From: Timema cristinae
Lineage: Eukaryota; Arthropoda; Insecta; Phasmatodea; Timematidae
Reading direction: 5' to 3'
Length of the DNA: 64,000 bases
Assembly: GCA_039000515.1 (NCBI GenBank)
Contig: JBCFYV010011135.1
Span: 12,942,468-13,006,467, forward strand
The position numbers and the translations under genes were made by a program. Within the stretch, counting starts at the first letter, position 1. Each line of letters starts with the position of its first letter. The notes beneath the pieces were generated by a model. It made no database searches. It was not told where the DNA came from and was given only the letters and a program-made list of their open reading frames with translations. Shown piece after piece: positions 1 to 57,981 of the stretch.

Positions 1-3000
1 AGATAGGATAAGGGTGTATTAGGTGGACTGGATAGAGCTAGCTCAAGATAGGGATAGGGTGTAATGAGGTGGACTGGATATAGCTAGCTCAAGATAGGGA
101 TATGGTGTTATTAGGTGACTGGATAAACTAGCTCAAGATAGGGATAAGGTGTAATTAGGTGGACTGGATAGAGCTAGCTCAAGATAGGGATAGGGTGTAT
201 TAGGTGGACTGGATAGAGCTAGCTCAAGATAGGGATAGGTGTTATTAGGTGGACTGGATAGAACTAGCTCAAGATAGGGATAAGGTGTTATTAGGTGGAC
301 TGGATAGAGCTAGCTCAAGATAGGGATAAGGTGTTATTAGGTGGACTGGATAGAGCTAGCTCAAGATAGGGATAAGGTGTTATTAGGTGGACTGGATAGA
401 GCTAGTAAGATAGGGATAAGGTGTTATTAGGTGGACTGGATAGAGTAGCTCAAGATAGGGATAAGGTGTTATTAGGTGGACTGGATAGAGCTAGCTCAAG
501 ATAGGATAAGGTGTTATTAGGTGGACTGGATAGAGCTAGCTCAAGATAGAGATAAGGTGTAATGAGATGGCCTGGATAGAACTAGCTCAAGATAGAGATA
601 GGGTGTAATGAGGTGGACTGGATAGAGCTAGCTCAAGATAGGGATAGGGTGTAATGAGGTGGACTGGATATAGCTAGCTCAAGATAGGGATATGGTGTTA
701 TTAGGTGGACTGGATATAACTAGCTCAAGATAGGGATAAGGTGTTATTAGGTGGACTGGATAGAACTAGCTCAAGATAGGATAAGGTGTTATTAGTGGAC
801 TGGATAGAGCTAGCTCAAGATAGGGATAGGTGTATTAGTGGCTGGATAGAACTAGCTCAAGATAGGGATAAGGTTATTAGGTGGACTGGATAGAGCTAGC
901 TCAAGATAGGGATAAGGTGTTATTAGGTGGACTGGATAGACTAGCTCAAGATAGGGATAAGGTGTTATTAGGTGGACTGGATAGAGCTAGATAAGATAGG
1001 ATAAGGTGTAATTAGTGGACTGGATAGAATAGCTCAAGATAGGATAGGGTTAATAGGTGGACTGGATAGAGCTAGCTCAAGATAGGGATAAGGTGTATTA
1101 GGTGGACTGGATAGACTAGCTCAAGATAGGATAGGTGTTATTAGGTGGACTGGATAGAACTACTCAAGATAGGGATAGGTGTATTAGGTGGACTGGATAG
1201 ACTAGCTCAAGATAGGGATAAGGTGTTATTAGGTGGACTGGATAGAGCTAGCTCAAGATAGGGATAAGGTGTTATTAGGTGACTGGATAAACTAGCTCAA
1301 GATAGGGATAAGGTGTTATTAGGTGGACTGGATAGAGCTAGCTCAAGATAGGATAAGGTGTTATTAGGTGGACTGGATAGAGCTAGTCAAGATAGGGATA
1401 AGGTGTTATTAGGTGGACTGGATAGAACTAGCTCAAGATAGGGATAAGGTGTTATTAGGTGGACTGGATAGAGCTAGCTCAAGATAGGGATAAGGTGTTA
1501 TTAGGTGGACTGGATAGAGCTAGCTCAAGATAGGGATAAGGTGTTATTAGGTGGACTGGATAGAGCTAGCTCAAGATAGGATAAGGTGTTATTAGGTGGA
1601 CTGGATAGAGCTAGCTCAAGATAGGGATAAGGTGTTATTAGGTGGACTGGATAGAGCTAGCTCAAGATAGGGATAAGGTGTTATTAGGTGGACTGGATAG
1701 AGTAGCTCAAGATAGGATAAGGTGTATAGGTGGACTGGATAGACTAGCTCAAGATAGGATAGGTGTAATGAGGTGGACTGGATAGAGCTAGCTCAAGATA
1801 GGGATAGGGTTTTGGTGACTGGATAAGCTAGCTCAAGATAGGATAAGGTGTTATTAGGTGGACTGGATAGACTAGCTCAAGATAGGGATAAGTGTTATTA
1901 GGTGGACTGGATAGACTAGCTCAAGATAGAGATAAGGTGTTATTAGGTGGACTGGATAGAGCTAGCTCAAGATAGGATAAGGTGTAATAGTGGCCTGGAT
2001 AGAACTAGCTCAAGATAGGATAAGGTGTTATTAGGTGGACTGGATAGAGCTAGCTCAAGATAGGGATAAGGTGTATTAGTGGACTGGATAGAACTAGCTC
2101 AAGATAGGATAGGGTTATTAGGTGGACTGGATAGAGCTAGCTCAAGATAGAGATAAGGTGTTATTAGGTGGACTGGATAGAACTAGCTCAAGATAGAGAT
2201 AAGTGTTATTAGGTGGACTGGATAGAGCTAGCTCAAGATAGGGATAAGGTGTTATTAGGTGGACTGGATAGAACTAGCTCAAGATAGGGATAAGGTGTTA
2301 TTAGGTGGACTGGATAGAGCTAGCTCAAGATAGGATAAGGTGTTAATAGTGGACTGGATAGAACTAGCTCAAGATAGGGATAAGGTGTTATTAGGTGGAC
2401 TGGATAGAGACTAGCTCAAGATAGGGATAAGTGTTAATGGTGTGACTGGATAGAGCTAGCTCAAATAGGGATAAGGTGTATTAGGTGAACTGGATAGAGC
2501 TAGATCAAGATAGGATAAGTGTTATTAGTGACTGGATAGATAGTCAAGATAGGTATAAGGTGTTATATAGTAGACTGGAATAAGCTACTCAAGATCAGGG
2601 ATAAGGGTTATAGGTTTGACCTTGGATAGACTAGATCAAGATAGATAAGGTGTTATTTAGTGATGATTAGACTAATAAAATAGGGAATAAATATGGACTG
2701 GATAGAGATAGCTCAAGATAGGATAAGGTGTTATTAGGTGGACTGGATAGAGCTAGCTCAAGTAGGATAGGTTATAGGTGGACTGGATAGAGCTAGTAAG
2801 ATAGGGATAAGGTGTTATTAGGTGGACTGATAGAGATAGCTCAAGATAGGGATAAGGTGTTATTAGGTGGACTGGATAGAGCTAGCTCAAGATAGGGATA
2901 AGGTGTTAATGAGGTGGACTGGATAGAGCTAGCTCAAGATAGGATAAGGTTTATTAGTGGACTGGATAGACTAGCTCAAGATAGAGATAAGGTGTTATTA

Positions 3001-3655
3001 GGTGGACTGGATAGAGCTAGCTCAAGATAGGGATAAGATGTTATTAGGTGGACTGGATAGAGCTAGCTCAAGATAGAGATAAGGTGTTATTAGGTGGACT
3101 GGATAGAGCTAGCTCAAGATAGGGATAAGGTGTTATTAGGTGGACTGGATAGAACTAGCTCAAGATAGGGATAAGGTGTTATTAGGTGGACTGGATAGAG
3201 CTAGCTCAAGATAGAGATAAGGTGTAATGAGATGGCCTGGATAGAACTAGCTCAAGATAGAGATAGGGTGTAATGAGGTGGACTGGATAGAGCTAGCTCA
3301 AGATAGAGATAAGGTGTTATTAGGTGGACTGGATAGAGCTAGCTCAAGATAGAGATAAGATGTTATTAGGTGGACTGGATAGAGCTAGCTCAAGATAGGG
3401 ATAAGGTGTTATTAGGTGGACTGGATAGAACTAGCTCAAGATAGGGATAAGGTGTTATTAGGTGGACTGGATAGAGCTAGCTCAAGATAGAGATAAGGTG
3501 TAATGAGATGGCCTGGATAGAACTAGCTCAAGATAGGGATAGGGTGTAATGAGATGGACTGGATAGAACTAGCTCAAGATAGGGATATGGTTTAATGTGA
3601 TGGACTGGGTAGAGCTAGCTCAAGATAGGGTGTAATGAGGTATAATGGACAGAAA
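1..3655 (+). repeat. 46-bp satellite derived from LINE reverse-transcriptase 3' end (array 1)
   Basis: About 80 head-to-tail units with a main period of 46 bp (core GGTGGACTGGATAGAGCTAG, then CTCAAGATAGGGATAAGG). Read on the plus strand, one unit encodes VDWIELAQDRDK, a segment typical of the C-terminus of insect LINE endonuclease/reverse-transcriptase ORFs. Since 46 is not a multiple of 3, the array is not a coding repeat. Many units carry 1-3 bp deletions, especially at 800-1200, 1700-2100 and 2440-2800. That may be decay or long-read assembly error. The array runs off the left edge. It ends in a degraded LINE-like 3' end near 3655-3720. Confidence 0.93.
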
Positions 3656-4700
3656 TAGATCAAGATAGCATAATTTTGTAAGTCAGATTCTAGAGGTTAT
3701 GATGCCATAAAGTAAGTATCTAATACAGCAATCTCTTTCTGACAAAATGAGGTAAAGTTTACTACTTTTTTTTTCAGCCAAAGATCAAAATTAATACATT
3801 GTTTTTTTATTATTATTTAACTAATAAAATATAGTGAACACTAAATTAATATTTAAAACCAAAATTATTTATTTTATGTTTTTAAAAGCAAATTTTCACA
3901 ATTTTTAGCAATCAATGTGTACTATATAATATAAATATGCCCAAAAAATTCACCAACTGATATGTTTTACCCTAATAATTAGTTCTCTGATGCTCAATAA
4001 TTAATCCTCTACTTTTTTATTTCTCTCCTCTCCCAATCAGATGAACCTTATGGAAAGGGGGATGTCCCCTTTCTTCACCCAATAGTCACACCACCTTACT
4101 ATAGATTTATAGCGGTGAGATATGAAACTAATATTTAAATGCATCAGGGTTGGATTGTCCTTAAGGTGCGAAGTCGCATGGCCTCCAATCACCCCAACGA
4201 GTACCCACTTATAATAAACTCTGCCCAAACACCCGAGTACAGAGTAGACAGTGTCACACGTTATAAGGCGTCATACTCGCACTGGAAAGTAGAGGTCTCG
4301 AATCTCGTATGGGCATAGCAAAGTTGGTTTTTTTTTTCATAAATATTTCCCCATATCTCTCCTTCCATGCAAACTAAGTTACACAACCTAAAAAATGCTA
4401 CCTTCCTCAGCTCTACTTTCTTAGCATAAAAACATCCGCGGATATTCCGGATACATGAGATCCAATTACGTAGGAAGAGCCTTATCTGATAACGATAAAA
4501 GGTTACTTGATCCACTTTTTCGTATTCATACATCAATTCGTATGGTCTGCAGAAGTAATTTTTAATATATAGATATTCTAAATAACTATAAAAAAATATT
4601 ATCCATTTCAGCCATAAAAATATACGTGTGAATTCTCTTAAAGCACCCTTATTTTGAAAATTGGACTGTACTAGTACGAATGTGTATCAAGAGCATAAAT
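3656..4700. other. AT-rich intergenic spacer, LINE tail at its left edge
   Basis: The first 60 bp resemble the LINE 3' end that also follows the array at 21.5 kb (a 'gatgccataaag'-like stretch here, 'aatgccaaggag' there). The rest is AT-rich. A moderately GC-rich patch at 4190-4330 contains a tRNA B-box-like string but no convincing SINE body. The short ORFs here have no recognisable domain. Confidence 0.5.
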
Positions 4701-4705
4701 TGAGA

Positions 4706-5345
4706 GCTTTTGAGAATAAAGTTCTGAGAAAGATATTTGGTCCTAAGAGGGATGAACAAATAGGAGAATGGAGAAAGTTACATAAAGAAGAACTTCATGG
4801 CATGTAAACAGCCCCAAACAACCATTTACTTTTCCCGATTTTGAGGATTCTTTTTACAGCGTGTTACAACCTATTCAGGTTAAACACATTTATAATAATT
4901 ACTCTAATGGGGTAGGGATGAGAAATAAATCATTTTACAGGTAATCTACCTGTATTTGCATGGAAGGAGAGTGGGAAACCATATAGGAAAAACCACCCTA
5001 AGTAGACCCGACTGGAATTCAAACCCCGATCTCACCGTCTTCAGTAGGCCAATCCAACCGGAGAGTAACGCCTTAGACCGTTTGGCCACTGAAGTGGCTC
5101 ACAAACATGTTAAGGTTAATCAAGGCGTGCAGCCTGGAGTGGGGTGGTCATGTGGCACGTATAGGTGATGACAGGTATATATATCAAACTTTTTGGTTGA
5201 GAAACTTGAAGATAAGAGAGCCCTTGGCTATCCGAGACATTGATGATAGAATAAATTGAGTAAGGATTTGAAGGAGGTTTGGTGTCAGGATAGGGATTCT
5301 ATGGAGCTTTCTCAGGATAGGGTTGAAGGGAGAGTACCTTCTGGT
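4706..5345 (+). pseudogene. Degraded LINE endonuclease/reverse-transcriptase C-terminus, split by a SINE
   Basis: Two blocks belong to one LINE ORF. At 4706-4810 the plus strand reads KIFGPKRDEQIGEWRKLHKE, a hallmark of the late C-terminal part of insect LINE reverse transcriptases. At 5125-5345 it continues with EWGGHVARIGDDR, then a segment ending DLKEVWCQDRDSMELSQDR. A SINE lies between the blocks. Stop codons and frame changes show that it is dead. Its last segment is the single-copy counterpart of the 46-bp satellite unit seen at 1-3655, 20.3-21.5 kb and 35.4 kb, which makes it a useful reference for how the satellite arose. Confidence 0.75.
4870..5105 (-). mobile_element. SINE family B, diverged copy
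   Basis: In reverse orientation it has the family-B body (ATTTGCATGGAAGGAGAGTG, then AAACCATATAGGAAAAACCA) and a tRNA-like head near 5030-5100 with a B-box-like 'ggaattcaaacccc' complement. It interrupts the LINE fragment. Confidence 0.6.
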
Positions 5346-7609: not shown

Positions 7610-8300
7610 AAAGAGGAGGCCATGGGAATGAAATTTGTGAGGAGCATGTTAGCTGTCACGAGAAGAAACAGGATTAGGAATGAAGTTATTATAGAAAGAG
7701 TAGGGTACAGGGAGTACATGAGATAGTAGAGGAAGCAAGATTGAGATGGTATGGTCATGTAATTGAGGATGTGGAGTACATGAGATAGTAGAGGAAGCAA
7801 GATGAGATGGTATGGCATGTAATGAGGATGTTGGAGTACATGAGATAGTAGAGGAAGCAAGACTGAGATGGTATGGTCATGTAATGAGGATGTTGGAGTA
7901 CATGAGATAGTAGAGGAAGCAAGACTGAGATGATGGTCATGTAATGAGGATGTTGGAGTACATGAGATAGTAGAGGAAGCAAGGGTGAGTGGTATGGTCA
8001 TGTAATGAAGATGTTGGAGTTCATGAGATAGTAGAGGAAGCAAGACTGAGATGGTATGGTCATGTGATGGGGATTTTGGAGTACATGAGATATTAGAGGA
8101 AGCAAGAGTGAGGTGATATGGGCATGTAATGAGGATGTTGGAGTACATGAGATAGTAGAGGAAATAAGACTGAAATGGTATGGGCATGTAATGAAGATGA
8201 AGGAGGTAAGGATTCCAAAGAAAACAGTTGATATGAACTATATAGGAACAAGATCGCAAATACAGCCAAGAAGAGATGAAGGAGCAGAAAACATAAATGT
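7610..8300 (+). pseudogene. LINE reverse-transcriptase C-terminal fragment with an internal tandem array
   Basis: The left block (7615-7715) reads MKFVRSMLAVTRRNRIRNEV, a typical late LINE reverse-transcriptase segment. The right block (8155-8300) reads EEIRLKWYGHVMKM followed by RIPKKTVD, the next typical segment. Between them a 62-bp unit encoding the RLRWYGHVMRM part has been amplified about eight times. Stop codons make it non-functional. The overlapping minus-strand 240-codon ORF is a low-complexity shadow of the array. Confidence 0.75.
7700..8195 (+). repeat. 62-bp tandem array grown from LINE coding sequence
   Basis: About eight units. Successive TTGGAGTACA starts (for example 7831 and 7893) are 62 bp apart, and each unit contains 'gatggtatggtcatgtaatg'. 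The unit encodes EEARLRWYGHVMRM in one frame. A 62-bp period shifts frame between units, so the amplification occurred at DNA level. Confidence 0.9.
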
Positions 8301-14099: not shown

Positions 14100-14285
14100 T
14101 CAAATGGTCTAGGGCGTCATTATAGCGTTAGCCTGGCCTGCTAGTGACAGAAGATCGAGGTTCAACTCCCGATCGGGTCTACTAAAGGTGATTTTTCCTA
14201 AATGGTTTTCCAGTCTCCTTCCACGCAAACGTAGGTACATTACCTTTCAAATGTATTTTGGTAGTAAGACGCAGTGGTAAAATAA
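14100..14285 (+). mobile_element. SINE family B-like inside the CSP1 intron
   Basis: Head 'tcaaatggtctagggcgtca' with B box AGGTTCAACTCCC at about 14158, body 'aaatggttttccagtctcct', 3' end GGTAGTAAGACGCAGTGG at 14259. It starts about 60 bp beyond the splice donor of CSP gene 1, so it lies within that intron. Confidence 0.8.
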
Positions 14286-14344
14286 AAATTCTGTCAATCC
14301 ATGTGGATGGATAAAAAATAAAAGAGATATAAAATATGCCTCAC

Positions 14345-14558
14345 CTTTGAGTTCTTTTGCGTCAGGACTGCATCTTTTTTCCCTGTCCAGCAAACAGTCG
14401 ACGTAGAAGTTAAGAAGACGGTCGCTTTTTAAGATGTCATCCAGGTTGATATTATCGTATCTGGTGGTATACTTGTTTTCCCTGGGCAGCCTTCCAGCGT
14501 GGACAGACATCAGTGTCGCCACCATCACCACCACCGTCACTAGAGTCAGAGTATTCAT
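14345..14558 (-). CDS. Chemosensory protein (CSP/OS-D family), exon 1
   Basis: Small secreted soluble carrier of the insect CSP family, which bind hydrophobic ligands. Only exon 1 is visible. It begins at ATG (14558, minus) with a signal peptide ([21 protein letters not shown]). The conserved CSP core follows: [16 protein letters not shown], then [19 protein letters not shown] with the first Cys pair (C-x7-C, one longer than the usual C-x6-C), then SPDAKELK. The splice donor GGTGAGG lies one nucleotide after the Lys codon, the intron position typical of CSP genes, so the open frame beyond 14345 is intron. About half of the 110-130 residue protein is encoded here. Exon 2 (second Cys pair) was not found. 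A TATA/initiator promoter and a short 5' leader sit upstream. The exon looks intact. Confidence 0.9.
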
Positions 14559-14626
14559 GATACCTCCTTGCGCTGTCTTAGCTCCTGGTAGTTACTATCT
14601 CTTACGGCTCGCTGCTCTCCTGGGAT

Positions 14627-19726: not shown

Positions 19727-20149
19727 CATAGTCCTATATCTAAATATATATATAGAAAAATATATAGAAAAACTTATAGTAATGGAGTAGGCATATAGGG
19801 AGAATAGTATATTAAAGAAAAAAAGATTTAAATTGTATAGTTTTATAGGCAAGAAAGAATAAATTATTTATTTGAGTCTAAAAGATTAGTTTTGGTATAA
19901 GCTTGTGAACACAATTAAAAAAGAACATTATAGTAAGAAGAAGAAAATTTAAACTAAATGTTTTGTTGTCTGATTTGTTAGGGTGTGAGATTAGACACAA
20001 AGGGGAATTAGGGCAGTGAAATATCCATAAAAAAATATATTTTTGCACGGGATGGTCATTATACTGATACTATATATGAATATAATGGTGAGTGGTGGAG
20101 GTTTAATAATGGCAAGCTACATATAATGTACTCACCACGTGGCATTGTT
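19725..20149. other. AT-rich spacer before the second LINE-derived array
   Basis: No convincing gene or element. Confidence 0.4.
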
Positions 20150-21600
20150 AGGGTACTCAAATCTTACAGGCTACAATAGGCAAAACATTCAACTTATATG
20201 GAATAATCTAGAATCTTGTTCAGGGTATTGACTGGCAAACCAAATGGGAAGAGATTATTGGGAAGACCTAGACGTAGATGGGAGGATAACATTTGGATAG
20301 ACCTGAGAGAAATAGGATGTAATGAGGTGGACTGGATAGAACTAGATCAAGATAGGAATAAGGTGTAATGAGGTGGACTGAATATAACTAGATCAAGATA
20401 GGAATAAGGTGTAATGAGGTGGACTGAATATAACTATATCAAGATAGGAATAAGGTGTAATAAGGTGGACTGAATATAACTAGATCAAGATAGGAATAAG
20501 GTGTAATGAGGTGGACTGAATATAACTAGATCAAGATAGGAATAAGGTGTAATGAGGTGGACTGGATAGAACTAGATCAAGATAGGAATAAGGTGTAATG
20601 AGGTGGACTGAATATAACTAGATCAAGATAGGAATAAGGTGTAATGAGGTGGACTGAATATAACTAGATCAAGATAGGAATAAGGTGTAATGAGGTGGAC
20701 TGAATAGAACTATATCAAGATAGGAATAAGGTGTAATGAGGTGGACTGAATATAACTATATCAAGATAGGAATAAGGTGTAATGAGGTGGACTGAATAGA
20801 ACTAGATCAAGATAGGAATAAGGTGTAATGAGGTGGACTGAATAGAACTAGATCAAGATAGGAATAAGGTGTAATGAGGTGGACTGAATATAACTAGATC
20901 AAGATAGGAATAAGGTGTAATGAGGTGGACTGAATAGAACTATATCAAGATAGGAATAAGGTGTAATGAGGTGGACTGAATATAACTAGATCAAGATAGG
21001 AATAAGGTGTAATGAGGTGGACTGAATAGAACTATATCAAGATAGGAATAAGGTGTAATGAGGTGGACTGAATATAACTATATCAAGATAGGAATAAGGT
21101 GTAATGAGGTGGACTGAATAGAACTAGATCAAGATAGGAATAAGGTGTAATGAGGTGGACTGAATAGAACTAGATCAAGATAGGAATAAGGTGTAATGAG
21201 GTGGACTGGATAGAACTAGATCAAGATAGGAATAAGGTGTAATGAGGTGGACTGAATAGAACTAGATCAAGATAGGAATAAGGTGTAATGAGGTGGACTG
21301 AATAGAACTATATCAAGATAGGAATAAGGTGTAATGAGGTGGACTGAATATAACTAGATCAAGATAGGAATAAGGTGTAATGAGGTGGACTGGATAGAAC
21401 TAGATCAATATACTGATAGGGTGTAATGAAGTGGACTGGATAGAACTATCTCAATATAGGAATAAGGTGTAATGAGGTGGACTGGATAGAACTAGATCAA
21501 GATAGGAATAAGGTGTAATGAGGTGGACTGGATAGAACTAGATCAATATGGGGATATATGGTGTACTTTTGTAATTGTGGAAAAATAACTTTTGAGATCC
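20150..21600 (+). repeat. LINE 3' end with 46-bp satellite (array 2)
   Basis: 20200-20320 is LINE reverse-transcriptase C-terminus in broken frames (GKP-like, then GRPRRRWEDNIW-like, then DLREIGCNEVDWIEL). From 20315 the same 46-bp unit as array 1 (GGTGTAATGAGGTGGACTG, then AATAGAACTAGATCAAGATA) repeats about 26 times to 21545. A LINE-like 3' end ('atcctaatgccaaggagtag') follows. Units here are far more uniform than in array 1 and lack its many short deletions. Confidence 0.93.
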
Positions 21601-21959
21601 TAATGCCAAGGAGTAGGCTAAATAACATTTCTAACACTAAGTTTGTATGTAATTTGTCTGCCAGGTTTTACTATACGTCTATATCATTTATATATATTTT
21701 TTATATTTTGAAGAAAAAATAACACCGTCAATACACAATTTTGTAATTTTAACCCAATTTTTCAGTCTCCTGAAAACTGGATATTCGAATATACATACAC
21801 TGAACGGATAGGGTTGTTGAAGAACGTTTTAAGAGTAAATTTAACAGTTTGGAGGAAAAATGGAAATACTTTTGAGGAAAAAGCTGATTATACTTGGATG
21901 GGATTTGAACCCTCACCTCGGAAACACCGTTAAACAAGACCATACAAAGTTGGAGGGGA

Positions 21960-24110: not shown

Positions 24111-24205
24111 ATTATCCAGTACTAATGAACCGTTGCCCAGGGGACGTCTGAGTGTACTAATCATACATCATTTAGTTGGAGGGTCTTTCCATGTCCAGAT
24201 TAGGT

Positions 24206-25380
24206 GATGGTGGTAGTGAGTATGAGGGAGATAGTGAATATGAGGGTGATAGTGAGTATGAGGGTGATAGTGAGTATGAGGGTGATAGTGAGTATGAGGG
24301 TGATAGTGAGTATGAGGGTGATAGTGAGTATGAGGGTTATAGTGAGTATGAGGGTGATAGTGAGTATGAGGGTGATAGTGAGTATGAGGGTGATAGTGAG
24401 TATGAGGGTGATAGTGAGTATGAGGGTTATAGTGAGTATGAGGGTGATAGTGAGTATGAGGGTGATAGTGAGTATGAGGGTGATAGTGAGTATGAGGGTG
24501 ATAGTGAGTATGAGGTTTATAGTGAGTATGAGGGTGATAGTGAGTATGAGGGTGATAGTGAGTATGAGGGTGATAGTGAGTATGAGGGTGATAGTGAGTA
24601 TGAGGGTTATAGTGAGTATGAGGGTGATAGTGAGTATGAGGGTGATAGTGAGTATGAGGGTGATAGTGAGTATGAGGGTGATAGTGAGTATGAGGGTGAT
24701 AGTGAGTATGAGGGTTATAGTGAGTATGAGGGTGATAGTGAGTATGAGGGTGATAGTGAGTATGAGGTTTATAGTGAGTATGAGGGTGATAGTGAGTATG
24801 AGGGTGATAGTGAGTATGAGGGTGATAGTGAGTATGAGGGTGATAGTGAGTATGAGGGTCATAGTGAGTATGAGGGTTATAGTTTTATTATTATTATTAT
24901 TATTATTAGCACCGCGTCTTACTACCCGTTCGGGTTATACGCACTTAAGCTAATGTGTAATGGTAGGATGATTGTGAGTTGAAATGAAGGACCTACAGTT
25001 TAACGTGGAATCCGAACCACGGTGGCGGCCTGGCATTCTCCACATTCACAAGATGTCTTGTCAGAGGTGAAGGAAGGGTTTGGCAATCAGATAAATCTGT
25101 GTCGGGACCGAGGATTGAACCCCGGCCGCCAGCATAGAAGTCTGACACATTACCCCTAGACCACCAGGTCTCCTAGGGTTATAGTGAGTATGAGTGTGAT
25201 AGTGAGTATGAGGGCGATAGTGAGTATGAGGGTGATAGTGAGTATGAGGGTGATAGTGAATATGAGGGTGATAGTGAGTATGAGGGTTATAGTGAGTATG
25301 AGTGTGATAGTGAGTATGAGGGTGATAGCGAGTATGAGGGTGATAGTGAGTACGAGGGTTATAGTGAGTATGAGGGTGTG
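24206..25380 (+). repeat. 18-bp minisatellite split by a SINE
   Basis: Unit GATAGTGAGTATGAGGGT, about 37 units before and 11 after a SINE at 24883-25174. Variants (GGTTAT, GGTTTA) recur in a roughly regular order, suggesting higher-order duplication of blocks. Open frames on both strands (DSEYEG or TLILTI repeats) follow from an 18-bp period without stops. There is no supporting gene context. Confidence 0.95.
24883..25174 (-). mobile_element. SINE family A inserted in the 18-bp array
   Basis: Full-length reverse copy with a TTA tail, ending 'agaccaccaggtctcct'. The array sequence AGGGTTATAG is duplicated on both sides (24873-24882 and 25175-25184). Confidence 0.95.
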
Positions 25381-35384: not shown

Positions 35385-35690
35385 TCCCCCTCATAGCATC
35401 CTAATACTATCTTGAGCTAGTTATAGCCGGTCCCCCTCATAACACCTTAACTTTATCTGGAGCTAGTTCTATCTAGTCATCCTCATAGCACCTTAGCTCT
35501 ATCTTGAGCTAGTTCTACCCAGTCCACCTCATTACATCTTATATATTTCAGGCCCATTCTAAGTTTATCCCCCCATCTGTGTGTAGGTCTTCCCAATTGT
35601 CTCTTACCATTGGGTTTGCCATTCAATATCTTGTTCACACAGCTTTATTTTCTTCCATTTGCGCTGCAGGTCCTGTCCGCCATAGCCTAA
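35385..35690 (-). pseudogene. LINE reverse-transcriptase 3' end with three 46-bp units (array 3)
   Basis: The minus strand reads LNGKPNGKRQLGRPTHRWG, then GLKYIRCNEVDWVELAQDR, the same C-terminal LINE segment as at 20.2 kb. It continues into two or three further diverged copies of the 46-bp unit (35385-35530). It shows an early stage of the expansion seen in arrays 1 and 2. Confidence 0.8.
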
Positions 35691-42155: not shown

Positions 42156-42499
42156 ATGAATGATATTAAAGAACCGTTGAGAATAGGCCTAATATGGGTA
42201 GAAAATTAAACTTAATACCTCTACTGAATCAAATTTTAGTTATTTATTTTTACTAATAAACTCGCGTTCACCTTCAATCCTCTCTTAATACTACAAATCA
42301 TTAAGACAACAACAAAAAAAACACTATCAACGACTTAAGGCCACTACGCTTATTCGGAGGAAATAAAAGATTGTCTTCGTTACGGTTGATGAGATATTCA
42401 AACGACTTACCGTGCATCATATGGGTAAGTAGAGAAAACAAAATTATACTCACTTTTCAACAAGTCTTTTACCCCCTTTCCCTCACTGTAAACTCCCAA

Positions 42500-42535
42500 G
42501 TATATAATGTCTTCGTGGTCGAACAAAGGCAGTCG
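42500..42535 (+). promoter_or_regulatory. Core promoter of CSP gene 2 (TATA + initiator-like)
   Basis: TATATAAT at 42501-42508 and GCAGTC at about 42530, 29 bp apart, give a leader of about 30 nt before ATG 42560. An alternative is that 'ccttttgctcgcag' (42537-42550) is a splice acceptor and the true promoter lies upstream. Confidence 0.5.
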
Positions 42536-42559
42536 TCCTTTTGCTCGCAGGCCACCACC

Positions 42560-42758
42560 ATGTTGTTGACGTTGAGCGTGTTTTGTTCTATGTGCGTGAT
42601 GCAATCCTTGTCGGGGATCCCCCGGGAGGACAAGTACACCAAGAGATGGGACAGCATCGACCTGGATCAGATCCTTCACACGGACAGACTATTGGAGGGG
42701 TACCTCAGGTGTCTCATGGAGGAAGGGCCTTGCACGCCGGACGCTAAGGATCTTAAGA
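42560..42758 (+). CDS. Chemosensory protein (CSP/OS-D family), exon 1
   Basis: Second member of the insect CSP family, expected to be a small secreted carrier of hydrophobic ligands. I chose ATG 42560 because it has a strong CCACCACC context and opens directly into a signal peptide (MLLTLSVFCSMCVMQSLSG). The upstream part of the open frame has no such features. The mature start PREDKYTKRWDSIDLDQIL is the CSP N-terminal core, followed by DRLLEGYLRCLMEEGPC with the first Cys pair (C-x6-C) and TPDAKDLK. The donor A|GTGAGT lies one nucleotide after the Lys codon, as in CSP gene 1, so the frame beyond 42758 is intron. No exon 2 was recognised downstream. Many minus-strand frames here are shadows. 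The exon looks intact and its sequence is GC-rich against its surroundings. Confidence 0.9.
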
Positions 42759-43039
42759 GTGAGTATCAAATGAGAGGTGGGGCTTTATCGTGCGTTTGAT
42801 TGATTTAATCCCTATAAGGTGTACTTTTCTTATAAAGTAGGGCCCCCACTCATAAAGTGGGTTAAGCCCCAGAGCCTCGTTGTAAAGCGGAATACAGCCT
42901 TTTTTAAATTTTCAAATGCACATAAAATACTAATATCATGTTTTATAAGCAAAACATACGTTACAGATATACGTTACATATGTGCACCGGCTAAAATAAC
43001 AAATTAAATAAATGGAAAACACTAGTGATTAACAATTCC

Positions 43040-43600
43040 CATTAACTGCCAATATTGGCGTACGCTTCAGAAACGTGGGTAATGAAAGAACAAGATAAAA
43101 GCAGTATGAAGGCGAGTGAAATGAGATTTCTCAGAAGCAGGATCAGTGTGACAGAATTTGACAGGATGAGAAATGAGAGAGTAAGAGGAATAGTAAAGGA
43201 AGAGCTAGTTCAGAAAAGTATAGAGAGAGAAGACACAACTGAGGGGGTATGGCAATGTGAGAAGAACAGAGGAAGAAAGGATGAACAGGAGGATGTTGGA
43301 TCTGGAGGTGGGGATAGGAGGCCAAGAAGAAGACCAAGAGACAGATGGCCGAAGGGAGTAAGGAGGAGTGTGGAGGAGAGAGGAGAAGGCTGGGCCAAGG
43401 TGGAGGGAGAGAGGAGGTGGGAGGAAAGGAGATGATGGAGAGGCTTATGTTCCAAACAGACCCAGTCAGTAAGAAGAAGAGAGGAGAAGGCTGGGCCAAG
43501 GTGGAGGGTGAGAGGAGGTGGGAGGAAAGGAGATGGTGGAGAGGCTTATGTTCCAAACAGACCCAGTCATTGGCTGGAAGCTTTAATCATGATGATTAAG
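43040..43600 (+). pseudogene. LINE reverse-transcriptase C-terminus with a 101-bp duplication
   Basis: The plus strand reads YASETWVMKEQDKSSMKASE, then MRFLRSRISVTEFDRMRNER, GRPRDRW-like RRPRRRPRDRW and ERRWEERRWWRGLCSKQT, the successive C-terminal segments of an insect LINE reverse transcriptase. The last segment (43381-43470) is directly repeated with a 101-bp offset (43482-43572). The ORF ends at TAA about 43598. The frame is open for some 125 codons but is only the tail of an ORF of over 1,000 codons, so the copy is 5'-truncated. It lies in the presumed intron or downstream region of CSP gene 2. Confidence 0.85.
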
Positions 43601-51920: not shown

Positions 51921-52029
51921 AATCACTGTTTGATGGATACAAGAGATACTCATGTTGTAATGCAAGAGTATTACTCCACTACATGGCCACACTAAATAAC
52001 AATATACTTATACTGTTTTATATCGCTTT

Positions 52030-53042
52030 CCAACCCTACTGCCCACACGATGTTCCAACCCTACTGCCCACACGATGTTTCAACCCTACTGCGCACACAA
52101 TGTTGCTACCCTACTGCGCACATGATGTTCCAACCCTATTGTGCACACAATGTTCCAACCCTACTGCCCACACGATGTTCCAACCCTACTGCCCACACGA
52201 TGTTCCAACCCTACTGCCCACACGATGTTCCAACACTACTGCCCACACGATGTTGCAACCCTACTGCCCACACAATGTTCCAACCCTACTGCCCACACAA
52301 TGTTCCAACCCTACTGCCCACACAATGTTGCAACACTACTGCCCACACGATGTTTCAACCCTACTGCCCACACGATGTTCCAACACTACTGCCCATACGA
52401 TGTTCCAACACTACTGCCCACACGATGTTGCAACACTACTGCCCACACAATGTTCCAACCCTACTGCCCACACGATGTTGCAACACTACTGCCCACACGA
52501 TGTTCCAACACTACTGCCCACACGATGTTGCAACACTACTGCCCACACGATGTTTCAACCCTACTGCCCACACGATGTTGCAACACTACTGCCCACACGA
52601 TGTTCCAACACTACTGCCCACACGATGTTGCAACACTACTGCCCACACGATGTTCCAACCCTACTGCCCACACGATGTTCCAACCCTACTGCCCACACGA
52701 TGTTGCAACACTACTGCCCACACGATGTTCCAACCCTACTGCCCACACGATGTTCCAACCCTACTGCCCACACGATGTTTCAACACTACTGCCCACACGA
52801 TGTTCCAACCCTACTGCCCACACGATGTTGCAACACTACTGCCCACACGATGTTCCAACCCTACTGCCCACACGATGTTGCAACACTACTGCCCACACGA
52901 TGTTTCAACACTACTGCCCACACGATGTTGCAACACTACTGCCCACACGATGTTTCAACCCTACTGCCCACACGATGTTGCAACACTACTGCCCACACGA
53001 TGTTGCAACACTACTGCCCACACAATGTTCCAACACTACTGT
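52030..53042 (+). repeat. 25-bp satellite
   Basis: About 40 units of CCAACCCTACTGCCCACACGATGTT with few variable positions (CCC/CAC after CAA, TCC/TGC/TTC, CACGA/CACAA). Because 25 leaves a remainder of one on division by three, all three plus frames read the same 25-residue cycle without stops, so the three ORFs of 301-367 codons are artefacts of periodicity. Lengths are very constant, unlike array 1. Confidence 0.96.
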
Positions 53043-55130: not shown

Positions 55131-57981
55131 TAGAGGAAAGTGCCCAAATTCGGACACCTCCCCCTAAAGCCGACCCCCGGTCTCCTGGTTGTGCATTCAC
55201 CTGATCTCTACCGAGACCAAGCCTAACTATTAATTTAGGGTTCTACCACTCTGCAGAAAAGCGCGTGCATCACCCGCTTCACTTGTTGCTTGACAATCCG
55301 CCATTACTTGTTTTCCTAGTGAACAAAGTTTTCTAAGTGTACCAGTTTTTTCCTTATTTTTCCTGAATATTGGCAGGTAAGCCTTTCGACGTATATATAG
55401 TCTTAAATGGTAATGTTAAGGCTTGAGTTTTATCACATAACTGTTTCGTTTGAACGTTTGGTTAAAGATGTATTGGTTTTCAAAAACGTAGTATATGGTC
55501 GCGCAAACCGGACCCCTTTGAGTTGCCTAAACCGGAACCCCTATTTTTCATGCTCAAAGTCTCCTTTTATTTTCTTTCACACTCTTATTCATTGCAAACT
55601 GTTGCAGATTGCAAGAGAATAATATGGGGAAGACTAATCAAAGAAAGTGGAGTACGTCTGACATGACAAAAGCAATTGACGCAGTTAGAAAAAAGCAGAT
55701 GGGATGGAAGAAGGCCAGTAAACAGTTTAGTGTACCGAAAACAACGCTTATGAGGTTGTCTAACATCAAGTACGGAACACCTGAGGAATCAGCAAAAACA
55801 AATAGAGGCAGGCCTACAATTTTGTGTAAAGATATTGAAGAAGAACTGGTTCGGTATTGTCTTACTATGGAGGCATCCTTTTTTGGGCTTACTCGCGCTG
55901 ACTTGCGGAGAATAGCCGTACAACTGGCAGAGAGAAATAACATTGCACATCCTTTCAAGGATGAAATTGCTGGGAAAAAGTGGGTTAGTCTTTTCCTAAA
56001 ACGCCACAAAACCAAACTGTCGGAAAGGAAGCCTACCGGAACATCTTATAGTAGGGCCCTTGGCTTTAGCAAAGAAAACACACAAAAATTCTATAAGCTT
56101 CTTGAAGATGTTTACGAAAAGGATAAATTCACTCCTGATAGAATTTACAATGTCGATGAGAGTGGTATTACTATTGTAAGTCAAAAGTACCAAAAGTAAT
56201 TGGCCTTCGAGGTAAAAAAACAGGTAGCTGCTTTGACATCAGGAGAACGCGGTGCTCTTATAACATTTGTTGCTTGCATGAACGCAGCTGGTTCTTTTGT
56301 TCCTCCCTTAGTAATTTTCCCGAGGAAAAATATGAGTGAACAGTTAAAAAAGGGGGCTCCACCAGGAACAATTTTTGCAGCGCACCCTTCAGGTTGGATC
56401 CAAACCAACTCTTTCACGCAGTGGTTTCGACACTTCATTGAGTATTCCAGTCCTACAAAGGAAAAACCTGTGCTGTTACTCTTGGATGGTCACTACAGTC
56501 ACACACAAAATATTGAATTGATCGACTTGCAAAACAAAACAATGTTACAATTGTTTCACTGCCACCTCACTGCTCACACAAGTTACAACCCTTGGATAAG
56601 ACTTTCATGGGACCTCTCAAAGTCTACTATAGCGAGGAAATCAGGCAGTGGTTAAGGCATAATGAACGTGCTCTCAGTGCTTTTGATGTAAGGGAGCTGT
56701 TTGGCAAAGCCTATATTAGATGCCAAACTGCTCAAATAGCAATTAATGGATTTGAAGTAACAGGCATTTACCCCTTGAACAAAAACCAGTTTTCAGATGC
56801 GAAATACATTGAAGAGGCCAACAAAGAGCAAGGTTCTCCTTTTTATGTATCGGTGTTAAAAGGAAAGACAGCAAGAAATCATCTGACCCTCCCAGAGAAC
56901 AGAGAAGAATGTGTTGAGGACGAACCACAAGTTATTGAGCTGGAGTTTGACCCAAATAAACTATCAACATCTTCAACAGCTCGGGGTGTTACTCTCTCCA
57001 CAGTTTCTAGTAAACAACAGTTTCTTGAAGATTCCCAAGCTACCACGACTTCTAAAACCAGCCCTTTTGACATCAACCCCATTCCAAAAATTCATAAGAG
57101 GAGCTCTAAAAGGGACGAAAGGCCTGCAGCTCTATGGTCATTACATCTACGCCTTACAAAGCCAAATTGGTGGAAGCCAAACAAGCGAAAAAGCAACAAG
57201 GGATTCGTCGTGGTCGTGGACGCGGGAGCAATCCTGGCCGGGAACGTGGATCCGAACCCGCACTAGAGCCATCATATGTTAAGAAAGGGAAAGAGCTAGT
57301 GAAAAAGCGCCTCAGTTTTGAAAGAAAAGTCGAAGAATCCAGCAGCAAAGATAGTGAAAGCGTGTCCTCCGGTACATCAGATTTAGACTTTCCTCCAGGA
57401 GTTTCCCCTTCCACAGACAATGATGTGAGGTGTATGTTTTGTGATGGCAAGTTTTCGGATGACACTAAAGGCGAACTTTGGGTCATGTGCGTAATGTGTT
57501 CGCTGTGGGCCCATGTCGAATGTGCAGGGGCTGAAAAAAACACTTATATTTGCGACTTTTGTCGCCAGCCTACTTACTAATTCTAAAATGAATTGTAGAA
57601 GTAATTAACTGTTATAATCTACTTATTACTAACATCTTTTTATGTATTAAAAAGTATCATTGATGTATTACAAGTGTACTTTAAAATGCTATAATATTTT
57701 CTCTGATTTAATCTCTTTTTATATACTTTTTAGTGTTATTTTGGTTTTTTGTATTAGGGGTCCGGTTTAGGCAACCTTTTTTCAAAATTGCCAAAGTGTA
57801 ATGTTTTGGAAAAAAAATAATTACTTCCATAATTATTATTCTTTTTAGTGTAAATAAAATATATATAGTAAATAACATTATGAAGTATACATTACATGCT
57901 TTAAAAGATAACTTTTAACAATTTTCAATTTTTTTAAAATCAAAAACAAAATGGGGGTCCGGATTTGGGCACTCTCCTCTA
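55131..57981 (+). mobile_element. Complete pogo/Tigger-like DNA transposon (element 1)
   Basis: Terminal inverted repeats: left TAGAGGAAAGTGCCCAAATT then CGGAC; right is the inverse of TAGAGGAGAGTGCCCAAATC then CGGAC. The ends are flanked by TA, the pogo/Tc1-mariner target. Inside the ends are further motif copies: CAAACCGGACCCC at 55504, TTGCCTAAACCGGAACCCCT at 55523 and its inverse at 57755-57774. One broken transposase gene fills the interior. Length is about 2.85 kb. Confidence 0.9.
55624..57580 (+). pseudogene. Pogo/Tigger-like DDE transposase with C-terminal PHD finger (element 1), broken
   Basis: Start ATG 55624 (MGKTNQRKWS). Domains in order: a psq/CENP-B-type helix-turn-helix (KASKQFSVPKTTLMRL, about 30-50 residues in), the DDE_1 core with first Asp in YNVDESG (about 56155), second in LLLLDGHYSH (about 56484) and third in PLDKTFMGPLK (about 56590), a basic linker, then a PHD-type finger near the end (CMFC.. 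CVMC.. HVEC.. CDFC, 57430-57560). Undamaged it would be about 650 residues. Lesions: a locally frame-shifted patch with a TAA at 56197 (lost base near 56180 and an extra A in the A7 run at 56214), a frameshift near 56550 and another near 57130. A possible 5' leader intron runs from CAG|GTAAGC (55376) to 'ctgttgcag' (55605). The gene is inactive as it stands. Confidence 0.88.

Follow-up and report, generated by a model that had tools for sequence, protein, structure and literature searches.

Three 46-bp minisatellite arrays in Timema cristinae and their relation to the C-terminal tail of a LINE-type ORF

Can the coding tail of a retrotransposon turn into a tandem repeat, and does such a repeat then travel with the element or grow where a copy has landed? 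A 64,000-nucleotide stretch of the Timema cristinae genome (assembly GCA_039000515.1, contig JBCFYV010011135.1, forward-strand positions 12,942,468 to 13,006,467; the window) raises this question. An earlier sequence-only reading of the window had described a 46-bp satellite, at three sites and in one phase, that had grown repeatedly from a LINE reverse-transcriptase ORF. TRF, with a reporting threshold of score 50, confirmed period 46 at all three sites: at 1-3630 (81.2 copies, score 5658), at 20311-21546 (26.9 copies, score 2213) and, read on the minus strand, at 35385-35541 (3.4 copies, score 181). TRF and unit decomposition together delimit array A (about 1-3640, plus strand), which has 81 full 46-bp units and is open at the window edge, and array B (about 20318-21555, plus strand), which has 27 full 46-bp units and zero deletions. 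Array C (about 35385-35536, minus strand), delimited by TRF, has 3-4 diverged 46-bp units. In a wraparound alignment the unit boundaries of A, B and C coincide, with base variants. The common phase was thus borne out: units abut at one position in all three arrays, the last junction of array C reading TTAGGATG instead of AAGGTG.

Minisatellites consist of head-to-tail units about 10-100 bp long and form arrays of a few kilobases at most. The three arrays, with head-to-tail units of period 46 in 3.4 to 81 copies, belong to this class. The word satellite is too strong for them, since they are minisatellite-sized, span at most 3.6 kb in view and show no satellite-scale abundance in the window.

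What does the unit encode? Its translation in one frame is CNEVDWIELAQDRDK; the unit codes for CNEVDWIELAQDR, a stretch of the tail at the C-terminus of a LINE-type ORF. We searched for proteins related to the B segment among those 0.55 to 1.75 times the length of the query. Relatives at E values up to 1e-3 made up 113 of the 114 candidates, and all were short proteins (jgi, ena). Behind their QDRx stretch the relatives have the consensus QWRALVNTVMNLRV, and an ORF end with at least 10 residues is present in 79 of the 113. When the LINE tail was compared with Pfam, no family reached the cut-off. By its RPRRRW-type motif we take it to be the tail of a LINE, a putative label that covers the tail segment and extends to no particular clade. 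Derivation of the unit from a LINE ORF is supported, but derivation from the reverse transcriptase domain is not: the segment sits behind the RPRRRW motif, in the C-terminal tail.

The arrays at 20.2 and 35.6 kb had been described as joined to an upstream LINE ORF, and both in-frame translations and tblastn agree. As tblastn queries we used the subset of the 113 relatives with at least 69 residues and the RRW motif. Directly upstream of array B, a LINE C-terminal ORF tail (RVLKSYRLQ...GKPNGKRLLGRPRRRWEDNIWIDLREIG) occupies 20147-20317 on the plus strand. The frame there is GKPNGKRLLGRPRRRWEDNIWIDLREIGCNEVDWIELDQDRNKV, its translation KPNGKRLLGRPRRRWEDNIWIDLREIGCNEVDWIELDQDRNKV continues into the array, and relative P0006 matched 72 amino acids at 20147-20362, reaching into the first B unit (E=2.3e-24). 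Directly upstream of array C, the corresponding tail lies at 35537-35671 on the minus strand; its frame is GKPNGKRQLGRPTHRWGDKLRMGLKYIRCNEVDWVELAQDRAKV, the translation NGKPNGKRQLGRPTHRWGDKLRMGLKYIRCNEVDWVELAQDRAKV continues into the array, and relative P0004 matched 35671-35498 (E=2e-15). Over 130 bp, of which 38 bp belong to the first unit, the DNA of the two loci is 83.8% identical. Array A reaches base 1, with its 5' flank outside the window, so that A is linked to the LINE by its units alone.

Perhaps, then, a pre-existing satellite merely recombined with LINE copies? Array A, which has no demonstrated LINE flank in view, would fit such an origin. However, at both B and C the first unit carries on the reading frame of the LINE, conserved residues included, and the VDWIELAQDR-type stretch occurs without arrays in LINE relatives. 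We consider recombination with a pre-existing satellite very improbable. By unit homology the arrays are LINE-ORF-derived tandem repeats, with the tail segment in frame with its LINE flank at B and C and with 113 relatives, and the sequence supports the view that, at B and C, the 46-bp unit is a piece of the coding tail at the C-terminal end of a LINE ORF.

We also searched other sequence collections for the repeat and the tail. In viral contigs the 46-bp array pattern had no matches, and 95 pattern matches to the LINE tail included none that could be confirmed. In genome contigs, 227 pattern matches to the LINE tail yielded three confirmed ones, all in bacterial MAG contigs and all at the contig end. 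These contigs, from Treponema, Coriobacteriia and Tannerella, end in 189, 132 and 93 bases, respectively, that match the LINE tail. The three are probably assembly chimeras with host DNA; the 46-bp array was found in none of them. Within the window itself, Rfam scans at the gathering threshold and tRNA scans found nothing. Two ORFs, at 14247-14591 (minus strand) and 42305-42799 (plus strand), match the opening part of the OS-D domain of insects (PF03392; E=1.1e-12 and 8.9e-14), as befits DNA that appears to come from an insect, and we presume that they may be part of a chemosensory gene cluster. At 55531-56655, adjacent ORFs with Psq, Tc5 DNA-binding and DDE_1 domains are probably the remains of a DNA transposon.

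Does the LINE resume on the far side of the arrays? Behind array B, at 21556-21600 on the plus strand, the frame continues as a possible LINE tail, IWCTFVIVEK, against the relatives' consensus QWRALVNTVM. Taken together with the last B unit, this tail gave a tblastn E value of 3e-4, and its anchored profile score was reached by 201 of 25,584 control positions. With position left free, the best profile score near B was -12.8, against a mean of -12.7 for random 130-base pieces; the scores near A (-11.4) and C (-12.3) were likewise at the random level. Profile scoring found no LINE match above control in the 3' flanks of A and C. The DNA downstream of arrays A, B and C and of the copy at 5.3 kb was also compared, in all six pairs. 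The C-A score of 13 was reached by 1 of 60 controls, and the other five pairs, reached by 10 to 44 of 60 controls, were rejected. One pair in six at the 1/60 level gives no general support for likeness among the 3' flanks. A motif chosen by eye from these flanks, ATGCCANNAAGTA, is found behind A (at 3702, exact) and behind B (at 21603, with one mismatch). LINE sequence after the array is a possibility at B, at best weakly supported by these sequences.

An unexpanded version of the segment had been reported near 5.3 kb. It is real but diverged: a single copy of the segment within a LINE tail (HVARIGDDR ... ELSQDR) at 5134-5321 on the plus strand, matched by tblastn at E=1e-7. Upstream of it, about 4700-4803 is, by its motif, presumably LINE-like as well. 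The stretch just before 5134 recurs at many sites in the window at about 70-75% identity in a self-BLAST. This recurrence suggests that a dispersed repeat may have been inserted between the LINE-like sequence and the tail.

How far can the sequence of array A be trusted? The unit alignment contains 114 single-base deletions and 11 insertions in A, against no deletions in B. All but one of the deletions (113/114) lie within the 67 full units before base 2990, the remaining one being in a partial edge unit. Among those 67 units, 47 carry at least one deletion, compared with none of the last 14 full units; the hypergeometric chance of zero deletions in these 14 is 4e-6, with the garbled region 2477-2800 left out. 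Homopolymers take up 19 of the 46 columns and hold 66 of the 114 deletions. The interior of the array (1-2990) is thus deletion-rich, and especially garbled at 2520-2700, and its final 640 bp are clean. We infer that the interior is a long-read consensus polished only near unique sequence. Because of this resemblance to an unpolished consensus, the unit count and length of A are unsafe.

We wondered what the unit variants record about the growth of the arrays. The wraparound alignment gave 116 rows (83 from A, 28 from B and 5 from C), of which 109 were used after incomplete rows and rows with at least six gaps had been dropped. Mean substitution divergence within arrays was 0.051 for A (81 units), 0.049 for B (27) and 0.221 for C (3); between arrays it was 0.146 for A-B, 0.177 for A-C and 0.206 for B-C. 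For 105 of the 109 units the nearest neighbours belonged solely to the unit's own array, the exceptions being B24 and all three C units, which were nearest to A units. GAT (LDQDR) is present in 26 of 27 B units, including the LINE-attached one, and GCT in 73 of 77 readable A units.

Most A units carry a derived T at sites 3 and 6, which is absent from the last three full units. Most B units carry a derived A at site 17, which is absent from the first unit and the last four; GACTGGATA is kept in the first, the last four and two inner B units, and the remainder have GACTGAATA. Ancestral-like units also occur in the interior, in B at 20548 and 21192 and inside A as well. The 27 B units fall into nine distinct types, and an A unit found at 558 has an identical copy at 3223 and a copy with a single change at 3499. 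As far as the units can be read, this is a pattern of local growth and homogenisation in A and B. Separate expansion in each copy, one of the two histories that had been proposed, is therefore supported for A and B, which have their own derived variants and are homogeneous inside; the identical unit boundaries in all three arrays suggest that what expanded was a shared seed.

Could the LINE itself have dispersed the arrays? The source element might already have contained a multi-unit 46-bp array and scattered it by retrotransposition, as VNTR-bearing elements do, with array length drifting afterwards in each copy. Retrotransposons that carry VNTRs are described (PMC4432496; PMC7004042), and both the identical unit boundaries at three loci and the presence of the same LINE segment upstream of B and C are what such dispersal would leave. 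Against it, 46 is not a multiple of three, and a stop (TAA) in the LINE frame follows just behind the first B unit. The array thus terminates the ORF close behind its first unit, leaving array-bearing copies without the conserved ORF end. Such copies are, to judge from their frames, probably dead elements and not active spreaders, which makes spread of long arrays by retrotransposition less likely. Also against dispersal, an array-type tail (with a KV or NV start) was seen in none of the 91 relatives readable past the QDR motif, the other 22 of the 113 being unreadable by the motif used, and the units of A and B are almost entirely private to their array. Nor do target sites speak for it. The 9-bp candidate duplication around array B, GGAGTAGGC at 19784 and 21610, is at chance level, with 46% of 300 size-matched random pairs sharing at least 9 bases, and was rejected. 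An AT-rich 10-bp match at B was rejected as well, at least 10 bases being shared by 20% of 300 random pairs. At array C no common run of at least 8 bases was seen in the stretch searched. No full-length LINE copy was identified in the window. Dispersal of ready-made arrays seems to us unlikely.

Perhaps each LINE copy instead duplicated the same 46-bp segment independently, because the DNA of the tail favours that particular slippage? The private units of A and B would be expected from such a history. We examined a flank-joined model of B, which includes the decayed 3' flank, and counted repeats anywhere in it. The longest exact repeat at spacing 46 was 4 bases and lay clear of the junction; for exact repeats, this spacing was equalled or bettered by 69 of 116 spacings. 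Microhomology as the cause of the 46-bp spacing is thus unsupported in this model of the B tail. By eye, downstream codons reading GATAGGTGG would permit an ATAGG repeat at a spacing of 46, but the window copy has other codons there, and this too was set aside. Spacing 46 is unremarkable in this tail, yet the unit boundaries are common to three arrays. As exact repeats do not favour this spacing, three independent hits on one 46-bp segment look unlikely, and the shared boundaries suggest a single seed duplication common to the three copies. A shared seed and independent seeding are not cleanly separable with three loci in one window.

Independent duplication draws further support from two other LINE-tail-like segments in the window, which have expanded with other unit lengths; such tails may be prone to expansion. 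The window has nine arrays with a period of at least 20 and a TRF score of at least 150, starting at 1, 7711, 20311, 35385, 37671, 43377, 49211, 52028 and 59586. Five of them fall in LINE tails or tail-like ORFs; the three 46-bp arrays are firm cases, one goes by a weak match and one by motifs only. The weak match concerns a 62-bp array of eight units at 7711-8199 (plus strand; TRF and translation). It encodes HEIVEEARLRWYGHVMRM, which is similar to a stretch nearer the N-terminus of a LINE tail; the sequence at the end of the array gave a weak tblastn match to relative P0063 at 8152-8274 (E=0.004, 34% identity), and a protein search found no relatives of that stretch. The case that goes by motifs is a 101-bp tandem duplication of 1.9 copies at 43377-43569 (plus strand; TRF and ORF). 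It lies in an ORF (ASETWVMKEQDKSS...RPRDRW...) that we take to be LINE-tail-like, and protein search found no relatives of this ORF either. With no relatives in either protein search, the LINE label is weaker for the 62-bp and 101-bp segments. Independent duplication of the 46-bp segment at each of the three loci is, in our judgement, improbable.

Two other minisatellites, with no LINE link seen, coincide with long open frames: an 18-bp repeat (EGDSEY) at 24205-25378, with open frames on both strands, and a 25-bp repeat at 52028-53041, with open frames in three plus-strand frames.

We therefore lean, with some reserve, towards one old, shared duplication in the LINE lineage, followed by separate growth in place in A and B and by decay in C. 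The sequence itself shows the LINE reaching the first unit at B and C, the common register and the array-private variants; the single seed, growth after insertion and the mechanism are the inferred parts of this reading. Weighing against it are the ancestral-like units inside A and B, the differing last junction of C, the weakness of LINE sequence behind the arrays and the decayed 3' flank used in the spacing model. A segment that begins with the Cys codon in IGCNEVDW and ends shortly after DRD would have been tandemly duplicated in this LINE lineage; at least three copies with the duplicated segment lie here in a span of 36 kb. Slippage or unequal exchange would then have lengthened the short arrays of A and B where they stood, starting in each from a unit variant of its own, with local homogenisation of the units. 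Array C would have stayed at 3-4 units and decayed. A bolder proposition is that C-terminal tails of LINE ORFs are a recurrent birthplace of minisatellites in this insect lineage: three different tails in 64 kb, with units of 46, 62 and 101 bp, would have expanded independently, and one would seed arrays and carry them to new loci. We offer it as a speculation that may well not hold.

How does this case compare with known systems? Chicken HinfI, from CR1, and PROsat of Phodopus and seal Pvc20, both from L1 ORF2, are described as LINE-derived satellites (PMC9659126). As here, the tandem unit in these reported cases comes from a LINE, wholly or partly from ORF2; in contrast, the present unit is just 46 bp, is drawn from the last tail of the ORF and is still joined to the LINE in two arrays, and we claim no satellite-scale abundance. 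In Lathyrus, tandem repeats in the 3'UTR of Ogre retrotransposons are reported to seed satellites (PMC7004042). There too, short arrays inside a retrotransposon are occasionally expanded, but Ogre is an LTR element and its repeats are untranslated, whereas the present element is non-LTR and the repeats come from a coding tail; carriage by active elements is not claimed here. In several reports minisatellites originate within mobile elements, Alu and B1 among them, a duplication in a dispersed element being followed by growth through slippage or unequal exchange, much as envisaged here (PMC6947457). In the present B copy, the flanking short repeats proposed in that account do not show at spacing 46. 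SVA and LAVA are likewise retrotransposons with an internal variable tandem repeat, but the VNTR is described as a standing part of those elements (PMC4432496), whereas the readable relatives here are without an array. In the open-licence literature we found no closer insect case.

LINE-ORF-derived tandem repeats are already known, and the present case is a further example. Its merit lies in showing, within 36 kb, one LINE tail in unexpanded, short and long states. In many insects, LINE tails truncated at the 5' end rank among the most common sequences of the genome. If such tails often spawn tandem repeats, as five of the nine larger minisatellites here may indicate (three firm, two weak), they would supply new arrays steadily. 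If this is true, the birth of an array could be observed within a single genome, from one unit to about eighty.
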